A stretch of DNA of 64,000 nucleotides, from the NCBI RefSeq assembly GCF_003544915.1, contig NZ_CP032097.1, positions 1,736,001 through 1,800,000 on the forward strand, in the 5' to 3' direction. Made by a program: the position numbers and the translations under genes. Below, in pieces: positions 18,578 to 32,345 of the stretch. The notes beneath the pieces are model-generated. The model did not search any database. It worked only from the letters and a program-made list of their open reading frames with translations, and was not told the DNA's origin. The stretch's first letter is position 1. Every line of letters starts with the position of its first letter. Origin of the DNA: Arcobacter ellisii (GTDB lineage Bacteria; Campylobacterota; Campylobacteria; Campylobacterales; Arcobacteraceae).

Positions 18578-18612
18578 ATAAAGTGCAAAAAATTTGATAT
18601 TTTTCACTTTAT
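18578..18612 (-). terminator. Inverted repeat at the hypF 3' end, possible terminator
   Basis: ATAAAGTG pairs with CACTTTAT, extended inside by A5/T5 with one extra base. It lies across the hypF stop codon. The downstream T-run on the minus strand is poor. Confidence 0.4.
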
Positions 18613-20858
18613 ATGTATTGATGATAAATTTGTCCCATACTGATGCCACCATCATTTGATGGAATATCAATATTAATATAAAATTCCCTACCCTGCTCTT
18701 CAAATTTATCAATTAAAATTTCAAGTAAAGTTTTATTTTGAAAAACTCCTCCACTTAAAACAACAGGTAAATTTTTATAAGAATTTGAAATTTCTAAAAT
18801 AAGATTTACAATAGTATTTATGAATTTTGAACAAATTAAATTTTTATCATTTTCTTTTATAAGTTCTTTAATCATAAGTCTTAAATCTATTTCATTTTCA
18901 TTTATTTCATAAGAATATGATGAAGTTATTGAACTATCATAGTTTTGCTCTATTTGTAAGCCAGTTTCACCCTCATAAGTTTGAGTATGTAAAATATCAG
19001 CAAAAGAGGAAATTGCATCAAATAAACGCCCTATAGAGCTACATAAAGGTGCATTTAACCCCTTTTGCCAAATTGTATAAAGCATTTTTATTTCTGTTTC
19101 TTTAAATGCCTTTACAGTAGGAATATCTAAAATTAAAATTTCTTCCAAAGAAAAAGTCTCAAATAAAAGACTCAGAGCAACTCTTTTTGGTTCTTTTACA
19201 GCCATTTCACCACCAAGTAACCTAAAATACTTGATATGTTTTATTCTCTTATAATCTTTTCTTGATGTAATTAATACTTCTCCACCCCAAATATTCCCAT
19301 CATCTCCATAACCTGTTCCATCAAAAGCAAATCCTAAAACCTCTTTATCAAGTCTATTTTCAGCCATAACTGAAAGAATATGAGCATAATGATGTTGTAT
19401 TTGAACCAATTTGATATTTGGATTTTTTTCTTTTAATTTCAAAGCAAATTTAGTTGATTCATAATTTGGATGTTTATCACAAATTACAACTTCTGGTTCA
19501 AAATCATAAAAATTTTTAAAAGTATTTATTGTTCTTTCAAAATATTCAACTGCTTCTATAGAGTTCAAATCTCCAATATGAGGAGATAAAATTAAATTAT
19601 TTTCAAAGGCTAAAGAGATAGTAGATTTTTGATTTGCACCTAAAGATAAAATCTTTTTATCAACATTTTTATCTAATTTTATTGCAGTTGGAGCATAACC
19701 TCTAGCATTTCTTAATTTTATATTATATTTTTTAACAACTTGTATAATAGAATCATCACATGCATTTATAATTTCTCTATTAAAATCTAAAATAAAATCA
19801 ACAACATCAATTAACTTCTCAAAAATCTCTTCTTTTGACCTAATTATTGGTTCATCTTTAAGATTCGCACTTGTTGCAACAAGTGGTTTATTTATATATC
19901 TAAATAACAAATGGTGTAAAGGTGTATAAGCTATAAAGCATCCTAATTTATTAACATTTGGTGCTATGTATTTTGATAAGGAGCTATTTTCTTTTTTGTT
20001 TACAAGAACAATTGGTTTCTCTTTAGAATTTAAAATCTTTTCTTCACTAATATTTATATTTGTATATTCTTTAATACTATTAATATTATTAAAAAGTAGC
20101 GCATATGGTTTTTTTGGTCTACTCTTAATAGTCCTTAATTTATTAACAATATTATCATTTGTTGCATCACATATTAAATGAAAACCACCCATTCCTTTAA
20201 CAGCTATTATATAACCTTCATTTATTAAACTTGCTGTTTTTTCAATTGCTTCTATGTTGTTAGATATTTCCATATTTTTTTTATTATACAAAGTTGCATT
20301 TGGTCCACAAACTTCACAAGAAACTGGCTGTGCATGATATCTTCTATTTGTAGGATTTTCATACTCTTCTTGGCATTTTTTGCATAATTTAAACTCTCTC
20401 ATAGAGGTATTTTCTCTATCATAAGGTACAGTTTTTATTATAGAATATCTAGGACCACAATTTGTACAATTTGTTAAACAATAATTATATCTATAATTAG
20501 ACATATCGTTGATTTCATTGATACAATCTTCACATATTGACATATCAGGAGAGATTATTGTAGTTTTATTATTTGAGCTTGAACTCTCTATTATTTCAAA
20601 GTTCTTATACTCTTCTTTTTTAATTATTTTTTCAATTTTTATTGAATCTATTTTTGCTAAAACGGGAGGATTTAATTTTAATTCATTTATAAAATTTTCT
20701 ATATCTTCTTCTTTTGCATAAAGAAAAATATTTACACCTTTTTCGTCATTATTAACCCAACCTTTTATATTATGTTTTATCGCTAGATTATATATAAAAG
20801 GACGAAAACCTACCCCTTGAACTATACCTGTAACTTCTATTTTTAAATTTATCATCAC
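18609..20858 (-). CDS. hypF: Carbamoyltransferase HypF, [NiFe]-hydrogenase maturation
   Basis: 749-residue HypF, which makes the cyanide ligands of the [NiFe] site from carbamoyl phosphate. Domain order is acylphosphatase (residues 5-90, GIVQGVGFRPF), two zinc fingers (C109/C112/C131/C134 and C159/C162/C181/C184, ending with the Kae1-type region), a YrdC-like domain (KGMGGFHLICDA, about 215-380) and a Kae1-like carbamoyltransferase domain (QHHYAHILSVMAEN, GFAFDGTGYGDDG, VVLSGGVFQN, NDGGISMGQ). All key motifs are intact. It is co-directional with and 30 nt from the HypF-like gene upstream. hypA-hypE are not in the window. Confidence 0.96.
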   Translation of the reverse strand: MMINLKIEVTGIVQGVGFRPFIYNLAIKHNIKGWVNNDEKGVNIFLYAKEEDIENFINELKLNPPVLAKIDSIKIEKIIKKEEYKNFEIIESSSSNNKTTIISPDMSICEDCINEINDMSNYRYNYCLTNCTNCGPRYSIIKTVPYDRENTSMREFKLCKKCQEEYENPTNRRYHAQPVSCEVCGPNATLYNKKNMEISNNIEAIEKTASLINEGYIIAVKGMGGFHLICDATNDNIVNKLRTIKSRPKKPYALLFNNINSIKEYTNINISEEKILNSKEKPIVLVNKKENSSLSKYIAPNVNKLGCFIAYTPLHHLLFRYINKPLVATSANLKDEPIIRSKEEIFEKLIDVVDFILDFNREIINACDDSIIQVVKKYNIKLRNARGYAPTAIKLDKNVDKKILSLGANQKSTISLAFENNLILSPHIGDLNSIEAVEYFERTINTFKNFYDFEPEVVICDKHPNYESTKFALKLKEKNPNIKLVQIQHHYAHILSVMAENRLDKEVLGFAFDGTGYGDDGNIWGGEVLITSRKDYKRIKHIKYFRLLGGEMAVKEPKRVALSLLFETFSLEEILILDIPTVKAFKETEIKMLYTIWQKGLNAPLCSSIGRLFDAISSFADILHTQTYEGETGLQIEQNYDSSITSSYSYEINENEIDLRLMIKELIKENDKNLICSKFINTIVNLILEISNSYKNLPVVLSGGVFQNKTLLEILIDKFEEQGREFYINIDIPSNDGGISMGQIYHQYI

Positions 20859-20888: not shown

Positions 20889-22289
20889 CTATTTTTGAAT
20901 GACAAACTCTTTATTGTAATAGATTTTAAAACTCTTTGTTATACTTTTTTCCACTAAAAAATTGAACTTATCATTAGTAAACATATCTCCACATAAACTA
21001 ACTCCTGTTATGCCATAAACACTATTTATATTCTCTATCTCTTTTCCTATAAAATTTGCTAAGCTTTCCATAAATCCTAAAGATATTATTCTTTCATCAA
21101 CACCTTTAAGTTTTAAACTTATTGCCGTTTTAAACAGTGCTAAATAATCAAATTTTCTATGAAAAATCTTTTTTGAATCAAGAAGTTTATAGTCAAGTTT
21201 TGAACCCTTTTCAAGGGAACTTTTTGTTACATTTTCTAAAATCTCATTTTTAAAATTTAAAACTACTTTTGCTATTTGAAAATATGTATAAAAAGAGTTA
21301 TTTGAAAAAGAGATTGAACTATTTAAAGCTATTTTATAATCTTGTGGAAATTTTTCTTTATAACTTGAAATAAGCTTTTTACCACTAGGTTTATTTTCTA
21401 TTCCTTCAAATATCTCTTTTATAGAATTTGGTATATACAATGGCTCTATAATATCAACTAATCCATCTATTTTTTCAGAATAATAACTTATCCCATCGCT
21501 ATTTTTACAACTTATATAAAAGTTTAGTATAGACTCTTTAAAAAGATTATTCTCCCATAAAACAGTCATAAATTGAGCTTTATTTTTCTCTTTAAATTTT
21601 TCAAATACTAAATCTAACTTTTTTGGATAAGAATTTGATTCCAAAATCAATTTTTTATTATCAAAACATTTGATTTTTGGAATATCTATATAAATATCTT
21701 TTTTACATTTTACATCTAAAAAATAGTCAAACTCACCATTTTCTTCAATATTTAGAAAATTTATCTCATATTTTTCTAACTCTTTTGACAATAAAAATAA
21801 AGTTAAATCATTTGAAAATCTGATATTAATTTTCTCTTTTTTTATACTATTTTTTTGTTTATAACTCTCATTTATTTCAAAATCAATAGATGGCTTTTCT
21901 ACGCTTGATAAAACCTCTATTTCTGCCTTTTTTTCAATAACTAGAGTATTAATATTTTTTAGATTTGTTACTAATAGTTTTGAACTATTTTCAATATTTT
22001 TTAGTTTTGAAAAGATAAATATTCCACTTAATGTTTTTATTTTTATCTTTTTATCTTCATTTATCAATAAAGCAAGTTTTTCAAATAATATTTTATTTGA
22101 AGCTATCTCTTTTTTTTCAAAAATAAATTTTGCTTCTTCAAATCCTGTACAGTTTTTACAAGATTTAAAAGCATTGTAATACTCTTTATTTCCCTCTTCT
22201 TCTACTTCTTTTAAACAAGTCTGACAAAAGGGGATTTTTTTCTCTTCAAATAAAGAAATTGAACTTTTATTAGGAAGTTCTTTAACCAT
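20889..22289 (-). CDS. Degenerate HypF/HydE-like protein, probable hydrogenase accessory factor
   Basis: 466 residues without a named function. The N-terminus copies the second HypF zinc finger (FCQTCLKE, then SCKNCTGF: C22, C25, C44, C47). Next comes a region co-linear with the HypF YrdC-like domain (ALLINEDKKIKIKTLSG against HypF SLINEGYIIAVKGMGG; SSVEKPSI against NSKEKPIV). The C-terminus resembles the Kae1-like end (GVSLCGDMFTND). The acylphosphatase domain, first zinc finger, HHxxH-type motif and NDGGxxxGQ motif are missing, so it should not be a carbamoyltransferase. It is also similar to HydE in this window. It leads the operon with hypF, and two inverted-repeat operator candidates precede it. 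Confidence 0.6.
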   Translation of the reverse strand: MVKELPNKSSISLFEEKKIPFCQTCLKEVEEEGNKEYYNAFKSCKNCTGFEEAKFIFEKKEIASNKILFEKLALLINEDKKIKIKTLSGIFIFSKLKNIENSSKLLVTNLKNINTLVIEKKAEIEVLSSVEKPSIDFEINESYKQKNSIKKEKINIRFSNDLTLFLLSKELEKYEINFLNIEENGEFDYFLDVKCKKDIYIDIPKIKCFDNKKLILESNSYPKKLDLVFEKFKEKNKAQFMTVLWENNLFKESILNFYISCKNSDGISYYSEKIDGLVDIIEPLYIPNSIKEIFEGIENKPSGKKLISSYKEKFPQDYKIALNSSISFSNNSFYTYFQIAKVVLNFKNEILENVTKSSLEKGSKLDYKLLDSKKIFHRKFDYLALFKTAISLKLKGVDERIISLGFMESLANFIGKEIENINSVYGITGVSLCGDMFTNDKFNFLVEKSITKSFKIYYNKEFVIQK

Positions 22290-22304: not shown

Positions 22305-22318
22305 TGAATAAGTATTCA
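22305..22318. promoter_or_regulatory. Candidate TetR-type operator, site A
   Basis: TGAATAAGTATTCA is a perfect inverted repeat (TGAATA / TATTCA) 16 nt before the start of the HypF-like gene. Its form TGAAT-N4-ATTCA is shared with site B 65 nt away and resembles the two elements near hydA. A link to the TetR gene at 31752-32345 is inference. Confidence 0.5.
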
Positions 22319-22369
22319 CTTTTTTATTAAAAGCATTCTATAATCTTTTAGGTTAAATTTTCTTGACTA

Positions 22370-22387
22370 AATGAATAAAGATTCATT
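22370..22387. promoter_or_regulatory. Candidate TetR-type operator, site B
   Basis: AATGAATAAAGATTCATT has 7-bp perfect arms and a 4-nt centre, with the same TGAAT-N4-ATTCA form and spacing as site A. It lies 81 nt upstream of the HypF-like gene, where a promoter would be expected. Confidence 0.5.
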
Positions 22388-25553: not shown

Positions 25554-25585
25554 AATAAGACTAAGCTTTGAAGCTTAGCCTTATT
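25554..25585 (-). terminator. Hairpin between hydC and hydD (partial terminator or attenuator)
   Basis: AATAAGACTAAGCTT pairs with AAGCTTAGCCTTATT (15 positions, one mismatch, 2-nt loop). On the minus strand it is followed by AACTTTTTT. It covers the hydC stop codon and separates the structural genes hydABC from hydDE. Confidence 0.65.
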
Positions 25586-26285
25586 TCTCTTCTTTTTCTC
25601 TTACGAATTTACTTCCACCAATAACAATAGCGATATCACCCTCTTTCCAGAAAATTGTTCGCCAAATTTGGTAATAAATATGACACATAACCCAAACTAA
25701 AATTAAATACATTGATGTATGATGAGCCATTCTAACTCCCATATTTCCACCAAAAACATCTAATGTCCAGTCTGTTGCAATATGAAGCATTGCTGGCCAC
25801 CAAGCTCCAATAGAACTATGTCCTGATGCTAATCCATGAACATATAATTGAAGTCCAGTAAATAACATAAATACAAGTAATAAATGGAATATTGTAAAAA
25901 ATACAATATTATAACTATCACTATGGCTTGAATCAAATTTCTTTCTTCTATTAAAAGTAATTAGATTTAAAAATACTTCAAAAAACTCTTTTATATTTTT
26001 TCCTGTTGGAATCAATTTTTTATATGGTTTTTCAAATCTTGAAAAGAAATATAAATAACCAATTAAAATAGCAGTTACATCAAATATAATTGCAACAATA
26101 AAATGTCCCCATCTATTCCAAGCCATTACATACTTATCCACTGCTGGATCAGCTATAAATGTTTGATAATATGGATGACCTATATATAAACCGGTTATAA
26201 CAGCAACTACCATACATATAGCATTAAGCCAATGTATGATTCTCATAGTTCCTGTCATTCTTTTAACCTCTTTAATTTTAGGCAC
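25581..26285 (-). CDS. hydC: HydC, cytochrome b subunit of [NiFe] uptake hydrogenase
   Basis: 234-residue di-haem cytochrome b with four transmembrane helices. It links the periplasmic hydrogenase to the menaquinone pool. Candidate haem-ligand histidines lie in MRIIHWLNA (helix 1), FTIFHLLLVF (helix 3) and ARMAHHTSMYL / VMCHIYYQ (helix 4); MAHH is preceded by GVR. It overlaps the end of hydB by 8 nt. It belongs to the HydC/HyaC/HupC family by length and helix pattern. Confidence 0.93.
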   Translation of the reverse strand: MPKIKEVKRMTGTMRIIHWLNAICMVVAVITGLYIGHPYYQTFIADPAVDKYVMAWNRWGHFIVAIIFDVTAILIGYLYFFSRFEKPYKKLIPTGKNIKEFFEVFLNLITFNRRKKFDSSHSDSYNIVFFTIFHLLLVFMLFTGLQLYVHGLASGHSSIGAWWPAMLHIATDWTLDVFGGNMGVRMAHHTSMYLILVWVMCHIYYQIWRTIFWKEGDIAIVIGGSKFVREKEEK

Positions 26286-28020
26286 GGCTAGTTCCTCCGA
26301 TTGGATCTACTTTATAAACTCCTAACTCTTTACCGTTAGTATCAATAATATGCACAGCACAAGCAATACAAGGGTCAAAACTATGAACAGTTCTTAAGAT
26401 TTCAAGTGGTTGGTCTGGATTTGCTACTTTTGTACCAACAAGTGATGCTTCATAAGCCCCCATTCTTCCTTTATAATCTCTTGGAGCTGCATTCCAAGTT
26501 GATGGAACAACAGCTTGATAATTTACTACTTTTCCATCTTTAATTTTAATCCAGTGACCTAACCCACCTCTTGGAGCTTCTGCCATTCCAAAACCTTGAC
26601 AATCTTTTGAAACAGAATCAAAATTAAATTCTGTCCAAGTTGATAAATCACCATGTGCAACATTTGAAGCTAACTCATCAACCCATTCCATCATAACATC
26701 ACACATAAGTTCTGTTTCAATAGCACGCGCTGCTGTTCTTCCAACTGTTGAGAATAAAACTTTTGTTGGTAAATTTCCATTTTTTAAGAATGTTGTTACA
26801 TATTTAGAAATTCTTTCATCACCCTTTGCAACTCCAACTATCATTCTTGCTAATGGTCCAACTTCCATTCTTTCATCATCATAAAGTGGAGATTTAATCC
26901 AAGAGTATTTTTTAGTTGTATCTAAATAAGCTACATTATTCTCTTTTTTACCAAATCCTGTATAGTTTGGTTTTGTAACTCCATCAAATGGATGCAGATT
27001 TGTATTTCCCTCATACCAAGCATGAGTTACGTCTTCTGTAATTTTTGTTTGGTCAATTTCAAAAACTTTTGTTAAATCTCTATTTTTTACAATTCCTGAT
27101 GGGAAAAGTTTTGAAGACTCATAAAATGGTAAGTCATCTAATCTAAAGTCACCATAAGACATATAGTTTCCTAAACCACCACCAATTCCTTCTAAAGCTT
27201 CATCCGCATACATAGTTCCAGCCATATAAACATCTGGTAAATATGCTTCTTTAGTGAACTTTTGACCTCTTTTTAAGATTTGTTTAAATTCTGCAATTCT
27301 TGCAGGATTTTTAATATCTTGAACACAAGTTACTCCACCAACAACAAAAGATTGTGGATGTGGATTTTTACCACCAAAAATAGCCATCATTTTTGCTAAA
27401 TCTCTTTGTAATTCAAGTGCATCTAAATAGTGAGAAAGTCCGATTAAGTTTTGCTCAGGAGTTAGTTTAAACCCTTTTGAACCCCAATATGCATTTCCAA
27501 AAATTCCAAGTCTTCCTTGTTTTACATATTTTGTAACTCTTTCTTGAACAGCTGCATACACATCTTCATTTGCATTCCATGGTCTTTGACCTGAAACTTT
27601 TGCCCATTTTTGAGCCTCTAAAACTGTTGCTTTTGGGTCAGCTTTTAAAGCTTCTGTTATATCAACCCAGTCAAGAGCGTGTAAATGATAGAAGTGAACA
27701 ATATGGTCATGTACATATAATGCACCTTGGATTAGATTTCTAACAAGTCTTGCATTTTTTGGAATTGTGATATTAAAAGCATGTTCAACAGCTTCAATAC
27801 TTCTTTGATAGTGAGTTCCTGTACAAACTCCACAAATTCTCATAGCTAAAAGTCCACAATCTCTTGGGTCTCTTCCTTTTAAAATCTCCTCAATTCCCCT
27901 AAACATAGTTGAAGAAGAGTAAGCATCTGTAACAACATTGTTTTCATCAATGATTGCTTCAATTCTAAGATGTCCTTCTATCCTTGTAATTGGGTCAATT
28001 ACTAAATGTTTTTGTGCCAT
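26278..28020 (-). CDS. hydB: HydB, [NiFe] uptake hydrogenase large subunit (group 1)
   Basis: 580-residue catalytic subunit. The two Cys pairs that hold Ni and Fe are RICGVC (C63, C66) and DPCIACAVH (C551, C554). After H557 there is a 23-residue tail for cleavage by HydD. DPITRIEGHL at residues 9-18 and the GHWIKIKDG segment are family hallmarks. It has no signal of its own and is exported with HydA. The start follows the hydA stop with a 1-nt overlap. Length and motifs match the membrane-bound H2-uptake enzymes of Wolinella and Helicobacter. Confidence 0.96.
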   Translation of the reverse strand: MAQKHLVIDPITRIEGHLRIEAIIDENNVVTDAYSSSTMFRGIEEILKGRDPRDCGLLAMRICGVCTGTHYQRSIEAVEHAFNITIPKNARLVRNLIQGALYVHDHIVHFYHLHALDWVDITEALKADPKATVLEAQKWAKVSGQRPWNANEDVYAAVQERVTKYVKQGRLGIFGNAYWGSKGFKLTPEQNLIGLSHYLDALELQRDLAKMMAIFGGKNPHPQSFVVGGVTCVQDIKNPARIAEFKQILKRGQKFTKEAYLPDVYMAGTMYADEALEGIGGGLGNYMSYGDFRLDDLPFYESSKLFPSGIVKNRDLTKVFEIDQTKITEDVTHAWYEGNTNLHPFDGVTKPNYTGFGKKENNVAYLDTTKKYSWIKSPLYDDERMEVGPLARMIVGVAKGDERISKYVTTFLKNGNLPTKVLFSTVGRTAARAIETELMCDVMMEWVDELASNVAHGDLSTWTEFNFDSVSKDCQGFGMAEAPRGGLGHWIKIKDGKVVNYQAVVPSTWNAAPRDYKGRMGAYEASLVGTKVANPDQPLEILRTVHSFDPCIACAVHIIDTNGKELGVYKVDPIGGTSRA

Positions 28021-29255
28021 TATTTTTCTTCTCCTTCATTTGATTTTTTCCCAGCAACTACAGATGCAACAGCATGAACTCCAATACCAACAGCCGTTGC
28101 TGTTAATAATCCAAGTCCAAACTCATCAACTGTTTTTTCAACTCCACCAGTTGGAGCTTTTATTTTTGCAGTTGCCATTGGTCTTTCATAAGCATATTTA
28201 TCCCAGAAATCTGGCTCAGAACATCCAATACATCCTCTTCCAACTCCAATAGGCCAGTTTGTACCTTCGTTATATCTAATGATTGAGCAGTTATTAAATG
28301 TCATAGGACCTTTACAACCAACTTTATATAAACACCAGTTGTTTTTAGCTCCTTCATCTCCCCACTCTTCAACAAATTCACCAGCATCAAAATGAGCTCT
28401 TCTTTCACAGTTATCGTGAATTCTATAACCAAATGCAAATTTAGGTCTTAAAAGTGAATCAAGCTCAGGAACTTGACCAGTTAATACATAATGTAAAATA
28501 ACTCCAACCATATTAGCTGGATTTGCAGGACATGCAGGAATATTAATAATTGGTTTACCTTTTACTATATCCATAACACCAACAGCACCAGTTGGATTAG
28601 GTGCAGCAGCAGGGATTCCACCAAATGTAGCACAAGTACCAACAGCTACAACAGCTGCTGCATCTTTTGCCATTCTTACAAGGTGGTCATGGAAAGTTTC
28701 ACCCATAGCACCAATAGTTCCATACTGACCATTCATAGCCATAGGAATAGCACCCTCAACAAATAATAAATATTTACCTTTGAAATGATGAACAGCATCT
28801 TCAAGTTGTTTATCAGCATCAAATCCAGCTGCCGCTTGAAGTGTTTCGTGGAACTCTAAACTTAAAACATCAAATAACAAATCATCAACTGTAGGAGCAC
28901 TACTTCTTAAAAGTGCTTCTGAGTTTCCTGCACAATCTTGTAACTCTATCCAAATAACTGGAACTCTATTCATAAGTTCTGTTGCTTCTGCAACAAGTGG
29001 AGCAAACATAGGAGGAAGCATAAGTGTAGCTGTTGTTGCACTAACCCACTTCATAAAATCTCTTCTATTTATTCCTTCACTCTCAATTATATCCATCATA
29101 TCAATATCTTTAAGAGGTTCTTGAGCTCTTAAATCTTTTAATCTTTGTTTAGTTTTCTCAAATAAAGAGTTATAATAAACTTCACCTTTATTTGTTTCAA
29201 CTCGCCCTGACTTTTGGGTAAAAAATTTTTTTACCATCTGTGTTGAATCAATCAT
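28020..29255 (-). CDS. hydA: HydA, [NiFe] uptake hydrogenase small subunit, Tat-exported
   Basis: 411-residue iron-sulfur subunit. The twin-arginine motif is NRRDFMKW (R64, R65), followed by a hydrophobic stretch and a cleavage site near VAEA. The cluster ligands include QDCAGN, GTCATFGG, ACPANPAN, CERRAHFD, CLYKVGCKGP and GCIGCSEPDFWD. A C-terminal hydrophobic helix (TATAVGIGVHAVASVVAG) anchors it in the membrane. The region before the twin Arg is about 63 residues, longer than usual, but the AAGGAG site fits the first ATG. It is the first gene of hydABC. Confidence 0.96.
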   Translation of the reverse strand: MIDSTQMVKKFFTQKSGRVETNKGEVYYNSLFEKTKQRLKDLRAQEPLKDIDMMDIIESEGINRRDFMKWVSATTATLMLPPMFAPLVAEATELMNRVPVIWIELQDCAGNSEALLRSSAPTVDDLLFDVLSLEFHETLQAAAGFDADKQLEDAVHHFKGKYLLFVEGAIPMAMNGQYGTIGAMGETFHDHLVRMAKDAAAVVAVGTCATFGGIPAAAPNPTGAVGVMDIVKGKPIINIPACPANPANMVGVILHYVLTGQVPELDSLLRPKFAFGYRIHDNCERRAHFDAGEFVEEWGDEGAKNNWCLYKVGCKGPMTFNNCSIIRYNEGTNWPIGVGRGCIGCSEPDFWDKYAYERPMATAKIKAPTGGVEKTVDEFGLGLLTATAVGIGVHAVASVVAGKKSNEGEEK

Positions 29256-29270
29256 AGTTTTGCTCCTTAA

Positions 29271-29284
29271 AATGAATATTCATT
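29271..29284. promoter_or_regulatory. Candidate TetR-type operator, site C (hydA leader)
   Basis: AATGAATATTCATT is a perfect 14-bp palindrome ending 2 nt before the AAGGAG of hydA. It also reads TGAAT-N4-ATTTA, one mismatch from the sites A/B form. Next to it is a second palindrome, ACTTTAATGTAAAGT (29286-29300). A repressor here would block hydA transcription or its ribosome site. Confidence 0.55.
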
Positions 29285-29285
29285 T

Positions 29286-29300
29286 ACTTTAATGTAAAGT
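29286..29300. promoter_or_regulatory. Second inverted repeat in the hydA leader
   Basis: ACTTTA / TAAAGT arms with a 3-nt centre, immediately upstream of site C. The binding protein is unknown. Confidence 0.35.
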
Positions 29301-29498
29301 AACAATAAGAAACTTAGGTCTTACTTAATAAAGATTACTAAAGAGTAGCATTAAAATAACAATTTGATTTTTGTAAGAATATTTGAAGTTATTATCTTTG
29401 ATTTTATGGTATTTCTTTGTTTTTTCTGTTCCTATTTTACATAAGTGAGATATTAATTCAGTTTTTTTTAACTCTGTTACTAATATACACTATTTTTG

Positions 29499-29510
29499 AA
29501 TGAACGTTCA
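29499..29510. promoter_or_regulatory. Candidate TetR-type operator, site D
   Basis: TGAACGTTCA (29501-29510) is a perfect palindrome. With the bases before it, it reads TGAATGAACGTTCA, which is TGAAT-N4-GTTCA, one mismatch from the sites A/B form. It abuts the stop codon of the sensor-type large subunit and lies about 250 nt upstream of hydA. Confidence 0.45.
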
Positions 29511-30866
29511 CTAATGTGTTGTACAAACAGAACAGACGTCAAAACTTCTCAAAATAATTTTCGCAATATCAATTGATGGTGCTCCAATTATTGCATTTTC
29601 TGCAATCCCTTTTTGTTTTTTATTTTGAGGACCTAAGTTCCAAACTGTAGGAGTTATTACATCATAAGATTTTATTTTTCCTTTTTCTATCTTCACATTA
29701 TGATATAAAGAACCTCTTGTTGCTTCAATTGCAGATTTTCCATTTGCTTTTTCAATATCAAGTAATGAAATTTTGGGTTTAATATATGATTCTTCAGAAA
29801 TATTTACTTTTGAAATCAATGATTTTGTATCATCAATTAAAAATGCAAGTTCATCCATTCTTGCCATCACTCTTGTAAATACACTATCAGATAGATTTTT
29901 ATGTATCTCTTTTATAAATTTTCTATTTGAGATAATTGCTCTTGATAAAGGACCTGTTTCATAAAAATTATCATTATAAGATACTGATTTACTCCAAGTA
30001 TGTTTTTTATCACTATTATTTTCTTGATTCAATAAAAAAGTAAACTCTTCATTTTCATTTATTTTTGATAAATCAATTTTATTTACCAATTTTATTTTTA
30101 TTTTCCCATTTTTAAATAGATTTGATTCGCCTAAAGTTATAAATCTATTATATGATTTTCCAAAATTATGCAGCTCATATTTAAAAGATAACTCTTTAAA
30201 ATACCTCATATCTTTTTGAAGTTTTTCTATATCACTAAAACTATCAAATGCCAAATAGTTTTCTAAAGATAGACCTGAAATCTCTTTTTCAAAGAAATTT
30301 AAAGCAGTTTGTAAATAATTTTGCATAGTTACTAAATCCATTAAAGTTGGGTCACTCATAACTCCACCAGGAAGCATATAAGAACTATGTGGCCATTGCC
30401 CTCCAATTACAGCTAAAGCTTTTATTGTTTCACTAGCAGTTTTACAAGCTTCAAGCCATCTTTTTCCTTTTAAAGGTTCATAAATACCTAAATCATTTTT
30501 GTCAAGTTTAATAATATCAGGCATAATAAATAAATAAAACCATTTTATATGGGAATCAATAATCTCTATATTTAAACCAATTTGTCTTAAAAGTTTAGCT
30601 TTTTCTGAAATTTCAAGTTTTTCATTTATGTTTTCATATACATTTTCTAAAGCATCAACGGTAGCTTTTAAGTGAGCTTGTCCACAAATTCCACAAATTC
30701 TTGGAGTATAAATCAATGCATCTAAAGGTGATTTTCCTTCTAAAATATATTCAAATCCTCTAAAATTTAGAAAATCAATTCTTGCATCACTAATAATTCC
30801 ATTATTCCAAAAACAGTTAAGTTTTGCTTCACCTTCAATTCTTTCTACTATATCTACTGTCTTCAC
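29511..30866 (-). CDS. Group 2-type cytoplasmic [NiFe]-hydrogenase large subunit (HupV/HoxC-like sensor or uptake form)
   Basis: 451-residue catalytic subunit, shorter than HydB. Both nickel-binding Cys pairs are kept: RICGIC (C58, C61) and DVCSVCTTH (C445, C448). The protein ends exactly at H451, so there is no C-terminal tail to be removed. That is a mark of regulatory hydrogenases, which need no protease, and differs from HydB here. GGQWPHSSYMLPGGV and RGSLYHNVKIEKG are typical. Sensor function is inferred from the missing tail, the cytoplasmic partner and the coupled TetR gene; a cytoplasmic group 2 uptake enzyme remains possible. Confidence 0.82.
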   Translation of the reverse strand: MKTVDIVERIEGEAKLNCFWNNGIISDARIDFLNFRGFEYILEGKSPLDALIYTPRICGICGQAHLKATVDALENVYENINEKLEISEKAKLLRQIGLNIEIIDSHIKWFYLFIMPDIIKLDKNDLGIYEPLKGKRWLEACKTASETIKALAVIGGQWPHSSYMLPGGVMSDPTLMDLVTMQNYLQTALNFFEKEISGLSLENYLAFDSFSDIEKLQKDMRYFKELSFKYELHNFGKSYNRFITLGESNLFKNGKIKIKLVNKIDLSKINENEEFTFLLNQENNSDKKHTWSKSVSYNDNFYETGPLSRAIISNRKFIKEIHKNLSDSVFTRVMARMDELAFLIDDTKSLISKVNISEESYIKPKISLLDIEKANGKSAIEATRGSLYHNVKIEKGKIKSYDVITPTVWNLGPQNKKQKGIAENAIIGAPSIDIAKIILRSFDVCSVCTTH

Positions 30867-30868
30867 TT

Positions 30869-31762
30869 TTATTCCATTAATTTTTTATGTAATCTATCTA
30901 TTTTAAAAGTTTTTGCAACTCCACTTATAGTTAGATAAGCTCTTTTTGAAATTCCAAAAGGAACATCTTGTGGTATTCCCATATTTTTTTTCGTTTCAAG
31001 TAAATCTGTTCTTGGGAAATCAGCTTCTGTACAACCAATACAAGGCATTCCTACTCTTGTTTTTGAACTAATTTCATTCCAAAGAATTTTATTACATGAA
31101 CTATGTGTCATAGGACCACGACATCCTTGATTATAAAACAGGCATCCCTCTTTTTGTCCAAATTCACCTTCAACTTTCCATTCAAAATACTCATTTCTTG
31201 TACAACCATGATGAGTTAAAGAACTATAAAGTTCTTTTGGACGTCCTTGTTCATCTAAAGAGATTTTTCCATAATTTTTTAAAATAAATAGTGTTTGAAA
31301 TATCCACTCAGGATGAACAGGACAACCAGAAAGATTTATAATTTGATGTTCTAAATTATCTAAAATTGATTTTTTTAAAGATTTTTTTACACTTGAGATA
31401 TCATTATGTTGAGTAAATTTTGCATGAATTCCACCAAAAGAGGCACATGAACCAACACAGATAATATATTTTGATTTTAAAGCTAATTTTTCTAATAAAG
31501 TTTTTGTAGAATTATTTGTTAGTGAAAATATATATTGATTTGAAGAAATTGACCCTTCAATTAGTAAAAAGTCTATTTTTTCTTCATTCTCTAAAATATC
31601 TTCAAGTGTTTTGTTAATTGTTAAACTTGGATGATAAATAAAATCGAAATTATTTAAGAATAATTCAAACCTATTTGAATTTGCACTCAATAAAGAGTGC
31701 GTATTTCCATTACAAGTTATTGCTTGAAACCATACAACTGTTGGTTTAGACTCACACATCAT
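30869..31762 (-). CDS. Group 2-type cytoplasmic [NiFe]-hydrogenase small subunit (HupU/HoxB-like)
   Basis: 297-residue iron-sulfur subunit. Cluster ligands appear in ITCNGNTHS (C17), VGSCASFGG, SGCPVHPEW, GCTRNEYFEW, CLFYNQGCRGP and GMPCIGCTEADFPR. There is no Tat signal and no C-terminal anchor, so it is cytoplasmic. The ending PFGISKRAYLTISGVAK matches the HupU/HoxB type of regulatory hydrogenase. Its start overlaps the TetR stop by 11 nt and its stop is 2 nt from the large subunit, giving a tight three-gene operon. A partner histidine kinase (HupT/HoxJ) is not seen nearby. Confidence 0.85.
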   Translation of the reverse strand: MMCESKPTVVWFQAITCNGNTHSLLSANSNRFELFLNNFDFIYHPSLTINKTLEDILENEEKIDFLLIEGSISSNQYIFSLTNNSTKTLLEKLALKSKYIICVGSCASFGGIHAKFTQHNDISSVKKSLKKSILDNLEHQIINLSGCPVHPEWIFQTLFILKNYGKISLDEQGRPKELYSSLTHHGCTRNEYFEWKVEGEFGQKEGCLFYNQGCRGPMTHSSCNKILWNEISSKTRVGMPCIGCTEADFPRTDLLETKKNMGIPQDVPFGISKRAYLTISGVAKTFKIDRLHKKLME

Positions 31763-32345
31763 ACTTTAATGCTCGATAAATATTATCAGCAACAGCATCT
31801 GAATAACTTAATAAATCTTTATCAAGTACATTCTCTCCACTTAAAAATGCAAATCCACCTAAACATCCCATAATCATACCAAATGCAGGGAAAAATTCTT
31901 GTTCTCTAAACTCTTTTTTTTGTGCACCATCATCAAGTAAAATCATAACTTCTGTTACAAACTCTCCAACACATAAAAAGCCTTCACAACCTTGTTTAAA
32001 AACTTCTCTGTTTGATAGATAAACTCTTAAAAAATACTCAATGATTTCAGGAGATTTTTGAACATTTTCTAAATATTTTTTTACAAATAGATATATTTTC
32101 TCTTTTGAAGAAATATCCATATTATTAACTTCTCTTAATTCATCAGCTAAAATATTTGTTGAATATTTTATTGCAAATTTAGCCAATTCCTCTTTTGAAG
32201 CAAAATAATTATACATATTTCCAACACTCATTTTCATTGCTTTTGCAATGTCTGGAATTGTAGTATTATAAAAACCTTTTTGAGAGAAAAGTTTTAAAGC
32301 ATTTTCTATGATATTATTTTTTTTGTTTTCTTTTGACGCTGAAAT
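31752..32345 (-). CDS. TetR/AcrR-family transcriptional regulator with unusual start (ATT)
   Basis: 197 residues if read from ATT at 32345-32343. The N-terminal helix-turn-helix is then complete: NNIIENALKLFSQKGFYNTT, IPDIAKAMKMSVGNMYNYF, ASKEELA. The first in-frame ATG (32237) lies inside the recognition helix and would leave no DNA-binding domain. No ATG, GTG or TTG lies between the upstream in-frame TAA and that point. AAGGA is 6 nt before the ATT. Another reading starts at an ATG further upstream, in a frame that only joins if an A8 tract (32317-32324) gains one base. The C-terminal ligand domain is of ordinary length. It overlaps the sensor-type hydrogenase small subunit by 11 nt. Confidence 0.72.
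   Translation of the reverse strand: MSASKENKKNNIIENALKLFSQKGFYNTTIPDIAKAMKMSVGNMYNYFASKEELAKFAIKYSTNILADELREVNNMDISSKEKIYLFVKKYLENVQKSPEIIEYFLRVYLSNREVFKQGCEGFLCVGEFVTEVMILLDDGAQKKEFREQEFFPAFGMIMGCLGGFAFLSGENVLDKDLLSYSDAVADNIYRALKYDV

Follow-up and report, generated by a model that had tools for sequence, protein, structure and literature searches.

How a transcriptional regulator, a cytoplasmic hydrogenase and an exported uptake hydrogenase might work together is the question raised by a gene neighborhood of Arcobacter ellisii, which we analyzed in a window of 64,000 nucleotides (NZ_CP032097.1, positions 1,736,001–1,800,000; coordinates below are those of the window) taken from the 2.80-Mb genome. 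On the minus strand, a gene for a TetR-family regulator (tetR, 31752–32345) is followed by the genes of the small (30869–31762) and large (29511–30866) subunits of a cytoplasmic [NiFe] hydrogenase, then by hydA (28020–29255), hydB (26278–28020) and a hydC-like gene for a cytochrome b subunit (25581–26285, named from its position and by eye), and finally by maturation genes. HydA, assigned by Pfam and by its twin-arginine translocation (Tat) motif, is the exported small subunit of the uptake hydrogenase, and HydB, assigned by Pfam, its large subunit; a Pfam search of the whole genome found no NiFe large subunits other than HydB and the cytoplasmic one. An earlier note on this DNA had described the first three genes as overlapping or abutting, and so they are: the tetR stop at 31752 and the small-subunit ATG at 31762 define an 11-nt overlap, and a 2-nt gap separates the small-subunit stop at 30869 from the large-subunit GTG at 30866. 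The explanation that we favor, with some reserve, is that the TetR protein and the two cytoplasmic subunits constitute a one-component H2-responsive repressor system acting on the uptake hydrogenase.

The association of the three genes proved to be strongly conserved. Our survey covered 397 genomes of the class and 104 genomes of its own family, and the large subunit was detected at E ≤ 1e-40 in 65 of the 104 family genomes and at E ≤ 1e-30 in 113 of the 397 class genomes, with an independent profile search finding the TetR at E < 1e-60 in 114 of the latter. All but one of the genomes with the large subunit (112/113) also carry the TetR, the sole miss (G379) being interrupted by a contig end. 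We examined 123 loci, namely 120 fetched regions, two plasmid loci and the window; outside the own family, 60 regions were fetched from 59 of the 86 genomes with matches. One locus (L155) lacks this type of large subunit, leaving 122, and in 120 of these the TetR frame overlaps the small-subunit frame or ends within 33 nt of its start, both exceptions being cut by contig ends. With 120 of 122 loci showing the same three-gene unit, its arrangement is not a matter of chance, and the survey for adjoining TetR genes that the earlier note had called for came out in its favor. A separate scan of named genomes showed the TetR in 58 of 63 Campylobacterota loci. Beyond that phylum, the same TetR lies upstream of the hydrogenase in four of 13 Aquificota loci (L168, L171 and L174 of Hydrogenothermaceae, and the partly read L172), and L174 has a TGAATGANNATTCATT-type operator, described below, before hydA as in Campylobacterota. 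Over 109 loci, mean identity is 0.62 for the TetR, 0.53 for the small subunit, 0.47 for the large subunit and 0.67 for HydA; TetR distances track those of the cytoplasmic hydrogenase (r of 0.92 and 0.915) more closely than those of HydA (0.48). This is weak support; such correlations do not separate functional from physical linkage.

The second line of evidence lies in the leader of hydA, where the earlier note had predicted operators. A palindrome scan to which no motif was supplied put AATGA-n4-TCATT at the top of the list for the stretch between the large-subunit gene and hydA in near loci, 45 of 47 having it against an expectation of 0.3, and TGAAT-n4-ATTCA at the top for the same stretch in far loci, with 47 of 58 against an expectation of 0.2; the expectations were derived from Markov shuffles. 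Both palindromes are parts of one 16-base site, TGAATGANNATTCATT, found in either orientation. Its half-sites are exact before hydA in 95 of 105 loci (0.1 expected from shuffles) and present with at most one mismatch in all 105 (8.7 expected), so that the predicted operators do exist and are conserved; control stretches of equal length gave one exact and eight near matches inside the large-subunit gene, and none and two, respectively, inside hydA. These counts omit 17 of the 122 loci, 11 without hydA in the stretch read and six with hydA more than ∼810 nt away. The best 16-mer sites have at most one mismatch in 93 of the 105 loci, 38 of them being perfect, and end a median of 22 nt ahead of the hydA start codon.

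In the window, the proposed main operator, TAAATGAATATTCATT, occupies 29271–29286 on the minus strand and ends 15 nt before the hydA start codon; palindrome and half-site scans both point to it, the palindrome itself, AAATGAATATTCATTT, spanning 29270–29285. This site holds the only perfect AATGAAYRTTCATT of the genome. A proposed second operator, TGAATGAACGTTCACT, was found by the site scan at 29497–29512 on the plus strand, overlapping the 3′ end of the large-subunit gene. A palindromic operator just ahead of hydA is what a TetR-family repressor of that gene would be expected to use, and binding of the regulator there is predicted. A generic sigma-70 scan detected no promoter-like site in the hydA leader.

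The distribution of the site beyond these loci links it further to the regulator. Exact copies of the 16-mer number 101 and are spread over 74 of the 397 genomes; 98 of these places lie in 71 of the 115 genomes that have the TetR or the large subunit and three in the 282 others. hydA is present in 367 of the 397 genomes and the 16-mer is mostly confined to those with the TetR or the large subunit; hence the site follows the TetR and not merely hydA. From the 101 places we hand-chose 40 off-locus stretches. In 13 of these the site precedes a hydA-type gene (twice in one of them), eight lying 3–17 kb from the unit and four on another contig or far from it (L272, L273, L289, L293), and in five it precedes members of a NicO-like family, one fragment of which matched NicO, a nickel transporter, weakly (24.8 bits; cut-off, 27.7). 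In A. ellisii itself, just one other place, 22372–22387 (plus strand), differs from the 16-mer by no more than one base. It is a site that the genome scan located upstream of a HypF_C_2-like gene (20889–22289, minus strand; a weak match, under the family cut-off) that is followed by hypF (18609–20858, minus strand), assigned by family match to the carbamoyltransferase of hydrogenase maturation. A two-mismatch site at 22305–22320 (plus strand), 15 nt ahead of the HypF_C_2-like gene start, is weak on its own, such sites being common genome-wide and near background (51 + 52 versus 20 + 38 in the control); of the two-mismatch sites, we considered solely those within the hydrogenase cluster. As a separate observation, operator-like palindromes with at most one half-site mismatch occur just before a HypB-like gene in Aquificaceae that have no adjacent TetR (L184:2389, L220:2438, L224:2043).

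The regulator is a member of the TetR family, as judged from its N-terminal helix-turn-helix (HTH) and from its modeled fold. TetR_N (PF00440) scores 55.6 bits in Pfam (cut-off, 24), the predicted structure has a pLDDT of 89.3 and matches TetR proteins of the PDB at a probability of 1.00, and the nearest PDB fold is that of FadR (3whb, 20% identity). The fold search returned solely generic TetR neighbors at ∼20% identity and gave no hint of a ligand. No in-frame ATG, GTG or TTG precedes the HTH in the window gene, and translation likely starts at an ATT (32345–32343), 6 nt past an AAGGA (32356–32352). Among 47 close loci, 24 show no canonical tetR start over 40 codons, and each of these has ATT or ATA at this place, the remaining 23 having ATG, GTG or TTG within one codon of the ATT position; of the distant loci, a single one of 71 has no canonical start (two of the 120 TetR loci, without a start-codon landmark, were left out of this classing). 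The repressor gene thus seems to have kept a rare and weak start codon through evolution.

The C-terminal domain of the regulator carries a cysteine pair, C120 and C125, in the motif CEGFLC. C-x4-C is present in all 120 TetRs of a first set and in all 61 of a second (58 by pattern, three on reading), and it is retained in the TetRs of two orphan genomes, G239 and G418, in which the cytoplasmic hydrogenase is absent at E ≤ 1e-30. We compared eight TetR paralogues encoded away from the hydrogenase: four carry C-x4-C in the same loop but shifted by three residues towards the N terminus, another carries C-x5-C, and the remaining three carry neither. The pair was therefore rejected as a hallmark of hydrogenase-linked TetRs. 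Two paralogous TetR genes (L252 and L256) lie near genes weakly similar to hydrogenase subunits and near genes that appear GltD-like by eye, and L252 has an operator half-site palindrome beside the start of its TetR gene; they possibly represent a second pairing of a TetR with a hydrogenase.

The hydrogenase encoded with tetR has the anatomy announced by the earlier note, with no Tat signal, membrane anchor or C-terminal tail. Pfam detects Oxidored_q6 and NiFe_hyd_SSU_C in the small subunit and NiFeSe_Hases in the large one, which terminates C445..C448-TTH. The twin-arginine motif is absent from the small subunit, the neighboring HydA having SEGINRRDFMKW, and only one of 121 cytoplasmic small subunits shows a twin arginine. 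Conserved cysteines and histidines of the small subunit are C18, C107, C148, H185, C188, C208, C215, C224, C242 and C245, in open-frame numbering, which is one above the count from the ATG. The closest solved proteins are 7utd and 7uur, entered under the name Hydrogenase-2, which we take to be mycobacterial Huc.

The kinship that had been suggested with the regulatory hydrogenases (RHs) HupUV/HoxBC, of group 2b, was not borne out. In a tree of 59 large subunits, the 31 Campylobacterota rows form a single clade (100/100), and this is nested in a clade that includes 12 Aquificota rows (100/100) and to which the window protein belongs; the four HoxC/HupV rows form a clade of their own (100/100) apart from it, and the Huc-like rows also stand apart. 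Group 2b membership was thus rejected, and the enzyme falls, by this phylogeny, in HydDB group 2d together with the Aquifex and Hydrogenobacter enzymes, any likeness to HupUV/HoxBC being functional at most. Absence of the tail is common to 4/4 RH, 12/12 Aquificota and 126/126 Campylobacterota large-subunit rows. Bulky Ile and Phe at the gas-channel positions, which we presume to be the residues typical of RHs, are present in the window protein as in all four RH rows; the Phe varies inside the Campylobacterota family, and we dropped these residues as proof of a sensor. As for function, the HydDB table leaves the role of group 2d open, with reductant-making or regulation as possibilities (PMC5037454), the huaSL genes of A. 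butzleri are labelled group 2d (PMC12286921), and opinions on what the cytoplasmic group 2 hydrogenase does in Campylobacterota are divided between a sensor, a maker of reductant and a ferredoxin oxidase (PMC4584964).

Several loci depart from the usual arrangement of the unit. The two subunit genes are more than 100 nt apart in eight loci; in L057, L059 and L062 they are separated by ∼700 bases, in which a gene of ∼220 codons, resembling a cysteine protease by eye, runs in the antiparallel direction, and in L090 by an Abi-like gene (also by eye). A different TetR-family gene (L239:2175–2804, 36 bits to the TetR model) lies directly upstream of a Bacteroidota group 2 small subunit. In L169, a metagenome-assembled genome of Persephonella, the operator and hydA come after the large subunit, and the 4 kb upstream revealed neither a small subunit nor a TetR of this type.

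These sequences directly show the conserved unit and the operator, along with where the operator lies and which further targets it has. From them we propose that TetR recognizes TGAATGANNATTCATT operators situated immediately before the hydA ribosome-binding site (29271–29286 and, as a second site, 29497–29512) and that, when bound, it would block transcription of the uptake hydrogenase; that TetR binds this operator and represses hydA from it appears very probable. In relatives, it may also control other hydA copies and probably genes for nickel uptake. The cytoplasmic hydrogenase, produced from the tetR operon, would react with H2 and signal its state to TetR, direct contact being the simplest route; in the presence of H2 the repressor would then leave the DNA and hydABC would be made. 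We regard the hydrogenase as the probable input of TetR, and H2 as the signal with slightly less assurance. A single HupT query detected no HupT/HoxJ-like kinase in the own genome, its best match there (68.8 bits) covering the kinase domain only; the same query scored 326 and 342 bits, nearly full length, against HoxJ and another HupT. In A. butzleri, both hynAB sets rose with H2, 3.7/2.3- and 6.2/4.2-fold, and huaSL fell (PMC12286921), which fits induction of the uptake hydrogenase by H2. The H2-sensing circuit suggested in the earlier note is considerably strengthened by the operator and partly supported overall: the TetR link, the operator, the lack of a kinase in the own genome and the A. 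butzleri expression speak for it, and the HupUV/HoxBC kinship has fallen away.

A number of observations weigh against this proposal. As many as 1191 of 2260 genes changed in the A. butzleri comparison (PMC12286921), and because of this breadth the response is not H2-specific. In Sulfurospirillum sp. hDNRA2, hynAB was equal on H2 and on formate according to the same study, a comparison qualified by the fact that formate itself yields H2. In S. multivorans, one paper reports hydB as constitutive and unaffected by H2, hupL transcript as mostly undetected, and an H2 sensor as possibly missing (PMC5357620), and another lists proteomes without HupSL (PMC6242987). Sulfurospirillum spp. produce H2 from pyruvate (PMC6242987), and this endogenous H2 might mask an induction. 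The gas-channel Ile is present in every group 2 row, and the RH-like Phe in just 49 of 126 Campylobacterota rows; in 29 of the 126 (e.g. L098–L100, L102–L103) the last His ligand is replaced by Gln (24 rows) or Lys (five). Among the Campylobacterota loci of the separate scan, L183 has the hydrogenase and no TetR in the 2.1 kb read upstream, and four others (L182, L185, L216, L223), all near a contig end, showed none. No TetR was found in the stretch read at nine of the 13 Aquificota loci, that is, the Aquifex/Hydrogenobacter branch (L184, L214, L219, L220, L224) plus L169, L170, L175 and L189. As regards the site, no hydrogen-related gene was recognized at 22 of the 40 off-locus stretches, and in L290 (G371), the remaining one of the 13 hydA-type stretches, an exact 16-mer precedes a hydA-type gene with neither TetR nor large subunit found. 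Finally, the orphan genomes G239 and G418 have the TetR, hydA and the site before it without the cytoplasmic hydrogenase; in a third genome, G298, the TetR is truncated, and both the hydrogenase and the operator site are missing.

The persistence of TetR and site in those two orphans favors an explanation in which TetR would be an ordinary ligand-controlled repressor of hydABC and the hydrogenase a catalytic enzyme, one that might for instance provide carbon fixation with low-potential reductant and would share no more than a transcript with TetR. The Aquifex/Hydrogenobacter branch, with no TetR upstream and with a HypB-like gene (by eye) at that place in four of five loci, fits such a metabolic enzyme, and catalysis is favored by Sievert et al. 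2008 and Campbell et al. 2009, as cited in PMC4584964. However, the co-occurrence of 112 in 113 and an adjacency that holds even where hydA is not beside the unit are tighter than co-transcription requires; the cytoplasmic hydrogenase of Sulfurimonas denitrificans is transcribed, yet its soluble fraction is reported to have no H2 uptake (PMC4149538), and huaSL drops when H2 is used (PMC12286921). We consider this explanation somewhat unlikely, and the simplest reading of the Aquificota may be one hydrogenase family with a sensor-linked and a metabolic form. The invariance of the cysteine pair in both sets, and its retention in the orphans, would agree with a TetR that senses general redox state or oxygen, the hydrogenase tuning it by supply or removal of electrons and H2 being one input only. 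Against it stand the four paralogues with C-x4-C, and the conserved cysteines may be structural. The same pair figures in a more specific version of our proposal, in which electrons from H2 would pass along the small-subunit Fe–S chain to the CEGxxC thiols and release TetR from the hydA operator, as an ancient one-component sensor that Campylobacterota would have in common with part of the Aquificota and that would have disappeared wherever the hydrogenase turned metabolic. Because four of the paralogues have C-x4-C, we lowered our estimate for both, slightly in each case: the sequences would permit a hydrogenase-fed thiol switch, the full electron route with its history is doubtful, and the general redox sensor very unlikely. 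TetR might, lastly, repress chiefly the hydrogenase pair itself, as suggested for hupSL of S. multivorans (PMC5357620). Of 48 near loci, 14 do have an operator-type palindrome ahead of tetR, and of 105 loci examined for half-sites in that stretch, five have exact ones and 33 have them with at most one mismatch. Nevertheless, in 72 far loci the ten palindromes most enriched before tetR include none of this type, and the site before hydA is present in all 105 loci counted; we rejected autoregulation as the main function and regard this alternative as highly improbable.

Both the adjacency of a TetR gene and the idea of a sensor are each already in print: a TetR-like gene had been noted upstream of hupSL in S. 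multivorans and proposed as its repressor (PMC5357620), and sensing is among the roles debated for the enzyme (PMC4584964). Neither a TetR operator before hydA nor a TetR as the output of this hydrogenase was found in the open-licence literature searched. The TetR partner and the conserved operator make the sensor hypothesis for the cytoplasmic group 2 hydrogenase directly testable. If true, H2-sensing hydrogenases would acquire an output made of one component, with neither a histidine kinase nor a response regulator, H2 would be sensed by a simple repressor in a phylum important at hydrothermal vents, and the system would offer a compact part for H2 biosensors.

Among known systems, signaling by RHs ends in a sigma-54-type activator. 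HupUV/HoxBC, which work with HupT/HoxJ and HupR/HoxA, resemble the window hydrogenase in being cytoplasmic, in lacking a Tat signal and tail, in being encoded near an uptake hydrogenase and in their gas-channel Ile and Phe; the window enzyme differs from them in its separate clade, in the lack of such a kinase among the matches in its own genome and in having a TetR-family protein as partner. HydDB describes RHs as acting via a two-component system (PMC5037454). With HuaSL, HupSL and Aquifex hydrogenase III the enzyme shares the group 2d clade (100/100), but unlike the Aquifex/Hydrogenobacter branch, with five loci and no adjacent TetR, the Campylobacterota form nearly always has one. A parallel is offered by the Thermococci, in which an F420-type hydrogenase has been suggested to act as a regulator by reducing the redox-sensitive transcription factor SurR (PMC10025317); there, hydrogenase and regulator belong to other families and the route is indirect, through TrxR and Pdo. 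TetR genes are also found upstream of some formate-hydrogenlyase operons (PMC10025317). With the TetR family at large the regulator shares the HTH, a predicted FadR-like fold and a palindromic operator, and it is set apart from other TetR proteins by an unusually conserved C-terminal domain with a cysteine pair and by its tie to a hydrogenase.

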